A stretch of DNA of 64,000 nucleotides from an uncultured Acidimicrobiales bacterium (GTDB taxonomy: Bacteria > Actinomycetota > Acidimicrobiia > Acidimicrobiales > SZUA-35), in assembly GCA_938029215.1 (NCBI GenBank), contig CALHFG010000093.1:1-64000 (forward strand), written 5' to 3'. The position numbers and the translations under genes were made by a program. Below the pieces are notes generated by a model, which worked only from the letters and a program-made list of their open reading frames with translations, ran no database searches and was not told the DNA's origin. Below are positions 54,058 to 56,665 of the stretch, piece after piece (the stretch's first letter is position 1; the number at the start of each line of letters is the position of its first letter).

Positions 54058-54819
54058 TCATGGTTCCGGTTGGGCGATTGCCGCCGGACTGAACCCGTAC
54101 GGCAGTTCGAGGCGGTGAGCAGCTAGCAGTTGGCTATCGGCGAGGACCTCCGGGGTTGGTCCGTCGGCGACGACACGGCCGTTGCTGATAATGACCGACC
54201 GCGGGCAGAGCTCCAATGCCAGGGGGAGGTCATGAGTGATCACAAGCTGGGTTAGATCGAGCGACTTCAAGAGATTGGCGAGCTCCCTTCGGCCGAACGG
54301 GTCCAGGCCGCTGGTTGGCTCGTCGAGCACCAGAACGTCGGGATGCATGGCCAGCACCGTGGCGATCGCGACTCGCCGTTTCTCGCCACCGCTGAGATGA
54401 TGAGGGGTCCGGTCCACGAAGTCGATGGCGTCGACTGCGTCTAGAGCCTCACGAACTCTTTCGGCCTGCTGTTCCTTGGTGAGGCCGAGATTCGCTGGGC
54501 CGAACGCCACGTCCTCGCGAACCGTTGGCATGAACAACTGGTCGTCAGCGTTCTGAAACACCATCCCGACGCGTCGTCGAATCTCACTGAGATTGTCCTC
54601 GTTGATCGGGATCCCATTGACTTTGATCGAACCGGCCTGCAGCTCAAGCACCCCGTTGAGGTGAAGCGCCAGGGTGGTTTTGCCAGCACCGTTGGGGCCT
54701 AGGAGCGCCACTTTCTCTCCCGGCTTCACCGTCATCGACAGTTGGTCGAGAACGGCGTGGCCGTTGGGGTAGGAAAAGGTGAGGTCTTCGACAGCGACAG
54801 ATTCGGGGGTGGAGTGCAT
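54058..54819 (-). CDS. cbiO: Cobalt/nickel ECF transporter ATPase (CbiO/NikO)
   Basis: 253 aa. Walker A GPNGAGKTT, Q-loop VGMVFQNADDQLF, signature LSGGEKRRVAIATVL, Walker B VLVLDEPTSGLDPFGRREL. The FQNADDQLF segment is typical of ECF-type ATPases with paired subunits. It is the last gene of the cbiM-cbiQ-cbiO operon, separated from cbiQ by 7 bp. Only one ATPase is encoded, so it presumably works as a homodimer, as in CbiMNQO and NikMNQO. It energises uptake of cobalt or nickel. Confidence 0.93.
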   Translation of the reverse strand: MHSTPESVAVEDLTFSYPNGHAVLDQLSMTVKPGEKVALLGPNGAGKTTLALHLNGVLELQAGSIKVNGIPINEDNLSEIRRRVGMVFQNADDQLFMPTVREDVAFGPANLGLTKEQQAERVREALDAVDAIDFVDRTPHHLSGGEKRRVAIATVLAMHPDVLVLDEPTSGLDPFGRRELANLLKSLDLTQLVITHDLPLALELCPRSVIISNGRVVADGPTPEVLADSQLLAAHRLELPYGFSPAAIAQPEP

Positions 54820-54826
54820 AGGCGTC

Positions 54827-55585
54827 CTAGGTGAGCAGGGCGAGGGTCGCCAGTGAGAGGGAGATGGCGCCAGCGGCAGCGCTCAGCAACCAATCCGACA
54901 AAGTTGCGGCCCGGTGGTCCATTTGGGGCATTGTGCCGGTGAACCCACGGGCGAGCATTGCGCCGTGCACCCGTTCACCGCGTTCATAGGAGCGCACGAA
55001 CATCGCTCCCGCGGAGGTGGCGATTGGTTTGGCTTGCCAAAGCCAGCGTGGGTCGTGGCCGCGGGCGGTCATCGCGACCCGAACCCGAGCCATCTCCTCG
55101 ACTATGAGGTCGAGGTATCGAAACATGAACGCCACGATCGACACAATGACCGTTGGCACTCGGAGACGGCCGAGGCCGCGGACGACGTCCGGGATCGGGG
55201 TGGAGCCAGCCAACACCAAGCTGGCGCCGGTTCCCAAGGTTGCCTTGGCGATTACGTTCCAGCTGGCCCACAACCCCTCGATGGACAGCCCTATGCCGAG
55301 GACCTGGGTTTGGTCGCCACCCGCAATCAGCGGGATGAACAGTGCGAATCCAACGAATGGGAGCACGGCCGCAAAACGGACAACAGCCTGACGTACGCGG
55401 TAGCCGGTGATTCGCATGGCTAGGGCGACGACAACCGCGTTGAGAGCGAACGCCCACACCGCAGTGCGAGGCGTGATCGACACGCCGACTGCGAAGAGGA
55501 ACGCTCCGACGATCTTGGCTTCCGGCGCCAGCCGGTGAATCGGCGAGGTTCCGGGGAGCAGGAGATGTTGGTGTGCACCTGCCAT
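54827..55585 (-). CDS. cbiQ: Cobalt/nickel ECF transporter transmembrane component (CbiQ/NikQ)
   Basis: 252 aa, about five membrane helices. The coupling-helix region contains MARVRVAMTARGHDP and the second Ala-Arg-Gly motif ERGERVHGAMLARGFTG, which dock to the ATPase dimer in ECF transporters. The N-terminus LLLPGTSPIHRLAPEAKI is typical. The gene starts 3 bp after the cbiM stop. It couples ATP hydrolysis to toppling of the CbiM substrate-binding unit. Confidence 0.92.
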   Translation of the reverse strand: MAGAHQHLLLPGTSPIHRLAPEAKIVGAFLFAVGVSITPRTAVWAFALNAVVVALAMRITGYRVRQAVVRFAAVLPFVGFALFIPLIAGGDQTQVLGIGLSIEGLWASWNVIAKATLGTGASLVLAGSTPIPDVVRGLGRLRVPTVIVSIVAFMFRYLDLIVEEMARVRVAMTARGHDPRWLWQAKPIATSAGAMFVRSYERGERVHGAMLARGFTGTMPQMDHRAATLSDWLLSAAAGAISLSLATLALLT

Positions 55586-55588
55586 GGT

Positions 55589-56596
55589 TTATGCCGGAGC
55601 CGGCTTGCGACGGCGACGTTCGCCAACGGCGAAGAACAGGCCGTAGCCGACGGTCATTGCGATTGCAGTCCCAGAGAAGCCCGCTATTGCCAGGCTTGCG
55701 GATTCGTTCGCTACGCCGCTAACGGCGTAGTCGGCGAAGACCCCGCTGTCCAGCAGGTGTTCCTCTGCCTGGTCGGCAAACCCGGTCTCTTCGGCAACGG
55801 TCTCGAGCCCGTCGGGCGAGTCCACCGCGAATTGACTGACGACGGTTGCCATGACGATCGACGCCAGGATCCCGCCGATGACAAAGGTGCGCATTGGGAC
55901 CGGGGAGCGGTCTGCGACGATTTCGCGGTCGAGGTCGGCGATTCCATGAACAAGGTCTGGGCGAGAGGCGACAACCGCGCCTATTGCAAGTGCGGTGATG
56001 CAGCCTTCGCCGATCCCGATCAACAGGTGCACGCCGACCATGGCAGTGAAGACGTTGTCGAAGTCGATCGGTGCCGTGGCCCCAAACAACCATTCGACGC
56101 TAAACGCCATTGCAGACAGAACGACCGAGGCTGCTGCGGCCAAGCCGGCCGCACCGATGATCCCCCCGGCGTTGTTGGGCATGAGTTTTCGGGCAAGCAG
56201 AAACACCGCGTAGCCACCGAACGCGGTAACGATCGCCATGTTGAGAATGTTGTAACCCAGTGCGCTCAGGCCACCGTCGGCGAACAGCAGCGACTGCACC
56301 ACCACAACGATCGTGACCACCAGCGCGCCGGTTGCGGGGCCGAGCAGGATAGCCGCCAACGCTCCTCCGAGAAGGTGGCCGGTGGTGCCAGCCGCAACAG
56401 GAAAGTTGAACATCTGTGCCGCAAAAATGAACGCCGCGGCAATTCCTGCCAGCGGGATTTGCTTGTCTTTGAGCTCGCGGCCGCTCTGGCGCAATGCAAA
56501 CCCCACGACGGCAAAGGAGATTGCCGCGGTGGCGATAGCAACAGGGGTAGACAAGAAGCCGTCGGGGGCGTGAAGGGCAAAGAACAAGCGGAGCAC
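55589..56596 (-). CDS. cbiM: Cobalt/nickel ECF substrate-binding component CbiM fused to a CbiN-like PDGLE domain
   Basis: 335 aa. Residues 1-210 are CbiM: HAPDGFLSTP, the histidine-bearing metal-site motif, and FNFPVAAGTTGHLLGGALAAILLGP. Residues about 235-330 are a PDGLE-type (CbiN-like) region with two helices around SPDGLETVAEETG. Such CbiMN or NikMN fusions are known. In characterised NikM/CbiM the metal is bound by the amino terminus plus His2 (Met-His); here the His is at position 9 because MLRLFFAL precedes it, and no start codon lies immediately before the His codon. A Fur-family box overlaps the promoter. Whether the metal is nickel or cobalt cannot be decided. Confidence 0.9.
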   Translation of the reverse strand: MLRLFFALHAPDGFLSTPVAIATAAISFAVVGFALRQSGRELKDKQIPLAGIAAAFIFAAQMFNFPVAAGTTGHLLGGALAAILLGPATGALVVTIVVVVQSLLFADGGLSALGYNILNMAIVTAFGGYAVFLLARKLMPNNAGGIIGAAGLAAAASVVLSAMAFSVEWLFGATAPIDFDNVFTAMVGVHLLIGIGEGCITALAIGAVVASRPDLVHGIADLDREIVADRSPVPMRTFVIGGILASIVMATVVSQFAVDSPDGLETVAEETGFADQAEEHLLDSGVFADYAVSGVANESASLAIAGFSGTAIAMTVGYGLFFAVGERRRRKPAPA

Positions 56597-56617
56597 CTCT
56601 GGTGTGGACGAGCCCTC

Positions 56618-56657
56618 AACCTAGAGCCGCCGAATCGCTTTCTGCAAATGATTCGCA
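56618..56657 (-). promoter_or_regulatory. cbiMQO promoter with Fur-family box (Nur/Zur-like)
   Basis: -10 TAGGTT (56618-56623, minus strand); the 15-bp near-palindrome TGCAAATGATTCGCA (56643-56657, 7-1-7 with one mismatch) overlaps the expected -35 position. The shape is that of a Fur-family operator; TGC/GCA ends fit Nur-like boxes and the 7-1-7 spacing fits Zur. Confidence 0.6.
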
Positions 56658-56665
56658 AAAAGCCC

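Follow-up and report, generated by a model that had tools for sequence, protein, structure and literature searches.

A predicted Nur-type operator built into the promoter of a CbiM-type ECF importer operon in an uncultured Acidimicrobiales bacterium

The closest described counterpart of the site reported here is the Nur regulon of Streptomyces coelicolor, in which a Fur-family regulator controls nickel uptake (nikABCDE) and sodF from an operator, tTGCaa-N5-ttGCAA, that lies over the promoter (PMC3919588, PMC7055735). The actinobacterial Zur regulon (znuABC) likewise depends on a Fur-family dimer bound to a 7-1-7 palindrome. Among the NikMNQO/CbiMNQO ECF importers, a 2009 survey left the choice between nickel and cobalt open for 13 of 40 actinobacteria (PMC2667541). 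Our partial coverage of the literature brought up nothing on nikMNOQ as a target of Nur, and nothing on nickel importers of cluster A-I.

We analysed a stretch of 64,000 nucleotides (the window) from an uncultured Acidimicrobiales bacterium, in which CbiM, CbiQ and CbiO domains share one operon, as expected of a NikM/CbiM ECF importer. A conserved box upstream of this operon very probably serves as operator for a nickel sensor of the Fur family, of Nur type, that controls nickel uptake. The target thus differs from that in S. coelicolor, being an ECF CbiM(N)QO importer. The elements of the locus are as follows.

54058-54819, minus strand: CbiO/NikO ATPase (PF00005, 6.9e-37; TIGR01166 passes its cut-off)
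54827-55585, minus strand: CbiQ/NikQ transmembrane coupling subunit (PF02361, 1.5e-32; TIGR02454 passes its cut-off)
55589-56596, minus strand: CbiM substrate-binding subunit fused to a CbiN-like PDGLE domain (PF01891, 2e-55; PF13190, 2.4e-14)
56597-56665, minus strand: 69-bp intergenic region that carries the promoter and the box; a cobalamin riboswitch would not fit into it, and none was found
56618-56623, minus strand: predicted -10 element TAGGTT, with the -35 element 18 bp away (from the sequence; spacing kept in relatives)
56642-56647, minus strand: predicted -35 element TTGCAG, identical with the promoter-proximal half-site (from the sequence and the TAnnnT spacing in relatives)
56642-56658, minus strand: predicted Nur-type operator TTGCGAATCATTTGCAG (TTGCRA-N5-TYGCAR; 26.2 bits with a held-out matrix; the genome's top match to the box model)

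The M, Q and O subunits of the known importers are thus all present, with the N-like domain fused to M; the CbiM differs in carrying a short extension before the conserved His. Its start is likely the TTG at 56587 rather than the GTG at 56596, as AGAGG lies 8 bp upstream of the TTG and the resulting product, MFFALHAPDGF, resembles the MLLALHAPDGF of congeners. CbiM usually starts with Met-His, Met1 and His2 being metal ligands. The short N-terminal extension is seen here (window 56561-56596) and at four further loci (L047, L128, L129 and L132); in MLLALHAPDGF, for example, the His codon follows a CTN leucine codon, so that no start stands at that position.

On the operon strand the box, TTGCGAATCATTTGCAG, runs from 56658 to 56642 and begins 7 bp past the upstream gene; the spacer from the phosphoesterase stop (56666) to the CbiM GTG (56596) measures 69 bp. 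The box contains a 15-mer, TGCAAATGATTCGCA on the plus strand (56643-56657) and TGCGAATCATTTGCA on the minus strand, which forms a 7-1-7 palindrome with six of seven half-site positions matching. The plus-strand AACCTA at 56618-56623 reads as a -10 TAGGTT on the minus strand. Its distance to the 15-mer is 19 bp, and that to TTGCAG, the last six bases of TTGCGAATCATTTGCAG, is 18 bp, giving a predicted promoter of TTGCAG-18 bp-TAGGTT. The preliminary description of this DNA had reported the near-palindrome, the -10 at 19 bp, the 69-bp spacer and an overlap between box and -35, and the sequence bears out each of these, the overlap consisting in the TTGCAG half-site. With its half-sites TTGCGA and TTGCAG around ATCAT, the box spans 17 bp and is identical to the consensus TTGCAA-N5-TTGCAA at 10 of 12 half-site positions. 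As at Nur operators, it overlaps the promoter of a metal-uptake gene: the predicted -35 lies inside it and a Ni/Co ECF operon lies downstream.

Taken by itself, the box pattern is at chance level in both window and genome, which would suit a chance palindrome without a regulator. TGCAA-N5-TTGCA with up to two mismatches has 15 matches in the window against 18 expected, and with one mismatch it has 47 matches in the genome against 93 for a reversed control. Since the bare pattern is no commoner than chance, the case for the box rests on its position and its conservation across genomes. For this comparison a matrix was built from 27 CbiM-upstream boxes found elsewhere in the order, with the window box left out. 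This held-out matrix gives the window box 26.2 bits, a score at which a 4-Mb Markov simulation yields zero expected sites, and the next distinct site in the window 11.7. The preliminary description had proposed a genome scan for further instances. Using a sequence-only Infernal model, we obtained the cbiM operator as the best match in the whole genome and no second convincing box in this 94.6% complete assembly, while instances did emerge at Ni/Co transporter genes of related genomes, as described below. The runner-up in the own genome (C32:31280) is weak and lies within a sigma-factor coding region.

Among 298 genomes from the order, 40 encode relatives of this CbiM, and almost every one of these relatives that we examined has the same box upstream. 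Of 33 such boxes, 18 have a TAnnnT -10 located 16-18 bp from the promoter-proximal half-site, and none has one at 8-15 or 19-22 bp; this fixed distance indicates that the half-site doubles as the -35. The box also accompanies CbiM in nearly all Actinomycetota among the named genomes of an outside sample; some of these overlap the training set of the matrix, and Streptomyces, Microbispora, Kineosporia, Knoellia and Parafrankia are independent of it. In the outside sample, CbiM relatives of Chloroflexota, Omnitrophica, Ignavibacteriae and others have box scores not above chance. Judged by this conservation the box is real and functional, and a Nur operator built into the -35 of the CbiM promoter would be common to the phylum. 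Conservation contradicts a chance palindrome; with the held-out score of 26.2, the fixed promoter spacing and the repeated linkage to Fur genes also against it, that explanation is barely credible, even given the chance-level pattern and the single convincing site in this genome.

Four Chloroflexota CbiM genes (L225, L236, L246 and L251) are preceded by TTGCAA-N4-TTGCAA, a site with one base fewer than the actinobacterial box, and several Chloroflexota CbiM loci also carry a Fur similar to S. coelicolor Nur (ScNur).

The preliminary description had left the box to a Fur-family protein of either Nur or Zur type. Fur-family control is upheld by our comparison, and the matrix scores favour Nur. 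The CbiM-box consensus TTGCRA-N5-TYGCAR agrees with the published Nur box (PMC3919588). Control of the cbiM operon by Zur, with the box as a diverged zinc operator, would find some encouragement in the 13 of 15 bases common to the cbiM box and one of the genome's own znu boxes, and in the fact that the genome encodes a Zur. The common bases, however, include the N5 core, which is unconserved among CbiM boxes, and the matrices part the two classes: for the cbiM box, the Nur-type matrix gives 26.2 and a Zur matrix of only six sites gives 13.1, whereas for the own znu box the same two matrices give 12.7 and 28.0, respectively. The genome's own Zur boxes resemble TGAGAATCATTTCC and have low Nur-type scores, and the cbiM box lacks the TGANAATNATTNTCA-type palindrome of the znu genes. 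As CbiM-linked Fur proteins also fall outside the Zur clade, zinc control appears highly unlikely. Two Zur-type boxes (7226 and 7286) lie between znuA and znuC of this genome (L029:7195-7325, G000:C115), with zur after znuC.

Which metal the operon carries can be approached through the enzymes that the genome encodes. It has a Ni superoxide dismutase (Ni-SOD) with an HCDGPCGVY motif and a SodX-like maturation protease, and in the 94.6% complete assembly we found no CbiC (precorrin-8 methylmutase). No NiFe hydrogenase was found in the genome, nor a true urease, the one weak match being noise beside true ureases near 1e-50. Unlike the S. coelicolor regulon with its sodF, no box was found at the genome's own sodN. 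CbiC is also absent from three congeners and from most genomes with a CbiM of the CbiM-PDGLE type, and Ni-SOD occurs in 15 of 17 CbiM-PDGLE genomes against 133 of 281 others (p = 0.0009, phylogeny ignored); CbiM without PDGLE does not track with Ni-SOD. Since Ni-SOD is present and CbiC absent, nickel fits better than cobalt as the putative substrate of the operon, in line with the earlier lean to nickel. The absence of a B12 riboswitch, also put forward in the preliminary description, was corroborated: neither the window nor a set of 20 CbiM loci has a passing match to any Rfam family, a relaxed scan for the cobalamin riboswitch (RF00174) found none around the operon start, and the best RF00174 match in the genome lies elsewhere, below the gathering score.

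A cobalt sensor governing a cobalt importer would be plausible on family grounds, as the CbiM and NikM families overlap, and one genome of the order (G023) makes B12 and has such a CbiM with its box, while no Ni-SOD, urease or hydrogenase was found in it. The metal ligands of the candidate regulator's clade, described below, also differ from those of Nur. We nevertheless regard cobalt as unlikely, because of the distribution of CbiC and Ni-SOD, because the box also stands upstream of a NicT nickel permease in a relative, and because in G275, where a riboswitch-led cob operon holds one CbiM, the box is found only at the other. That genome's locus (L185, G275:C1:2572500-2585000) has the CbiM paralogue within the cob operon, downstream of the cobalamin riboswitch, and a second CbiM with a Nur-type box.

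The preliminary description had also asked which Fur paralogue is linked to the operon. CbiM has a divergent or adjacent Fur gene in many relatives. Two Fur proteins are encoded in the own genome: the Zur next to znuABC and an orphan (G000:C74:1885-2310, here C74 Fur), which is unlinked to the cbiM operon and has no box found upstream of itself; the linkage thus holds for relatives and not for this genome. In a Fur-family tree, C74 Fur falls in a clade with 15 CbiM-linked Furs (support 100/99), and ScNur forms a separate clade with other CbiM-linked Furs (support 97/87), the order of the deeper forks being unsettled. The top PDB sequence match of C74 Fur is S. coelicolor Nur. We consider C74 Fur, as the apparent ortholog of the cbiM-adjacent Fur in relatives, most likely to be the sensor of the cbiM box.

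The nickel-ligand histidines of ScNur are at sites around 33, 70, 72, 81, 86-90 and 126 (3EYY numbering). At these sites C74 Fur keeps H33, H72 and H90 and has Q at 70, E at 81 and E at 126. Across its clade H33, E81, D85 and H90 are invariant and the structural cysteines are kept, with E or Q at 70, mostly R at 72, and E or D at 126. Most of the nickel ligands of ScNur are therefore missing from the clade, and the metal that it senses may be a different one. The predicted structure of C74 Fur (pLDDT 92.9) fits the Fur, PerR, Nur and Zur folds equally and points to no particular metal. Sequence comparison thus suggests that the site works like a Nur box, with C74 Fur as a candidate regulator that may lie outside Nur proper.

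By analogy with Nur (PMC7055735), the box would be bound by such a regulator with nickel as corepressor, and binding would repress. When nickel is sufficient, the metal-loaded dimer would bind TTGCGA-N5-TTGCAG and mask the -35 in front of cbiM(N)QO, blocking RNA polymerase and stopping the import of nickel. Under nickel shortage, the apo-regulator would leave, the ECF importer CbiM(N)QO would be made, and the imported nickel would feed mainly the Ni superoxide dismutase. This reading would assign nickel to a group of CbiM-type importers whose metal had been left open in actinobacteria. A Nur-type switch is of a known kind; less ordinary are the altered metal site of the regulator's clade and the possibility that a ZnuA/AztC-type importer carries nickel, on which the following observations bear.

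In related genomes that lack this CbiM the box is also found upstream of other transporter genes, namely the NicT permease (L149, which passes the curated cut-off), NicO-like transporters (L134 and L154), and ZnuA/AztC-like ABC operons (L127, L133, L139 and L160), one of them divergent from an ScNur-like Fur. The family of the ZnuA/AztC-like operons is known for zinc and manganese. Such operons are present in 50 of 298 genomes, with box scores above 15 at 21 of 30 loci. They are nearly exclusive of CbiM, at 1 of 40 genomes with it against 49 of 258 without (p = 0.006, phylogeny ignored), and go with NiFe hydrogenase, which is found in 19 of 50 genomes with the operon and 26 of 248 others (p = 8e-6, phylogeny ignored). 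These box-bearing ABC systems are candidate nickel importers. It is possible, although we give it slightly less than even weight, that Acidimicrobiia control nickel import through a distinct Fur clade that kept the Nur box and rebuilt its metal site, with the same box on a ZnuA/AztC-type ABC importer where CbiMQO is absent. If true, the operator would have been conserved while metal sensing found another solution, and nickel would join zinc and manganese among the substrates of that importer family.

Nur-type boxes at ZnuA/AztC-like ABC importer operons were also seen at L267-L296. In G297 a box close to a NifU-like gene, with a hydrogenase gene 2.5 kb away, falls within coding sequence and was set aside, and boxes at unrelated genes (L150, L153, L156/L158 and L161) were not counted as regulon members. 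At L156 and L158, from two genomes of one genus, the box abuts the start of a gene that by eye resembles phage Gp37/Gp68. In three genomes (L152, L157 and L162), genes of the amino-acid-permease family (APC) lie directly downstream of a Nur-type box.
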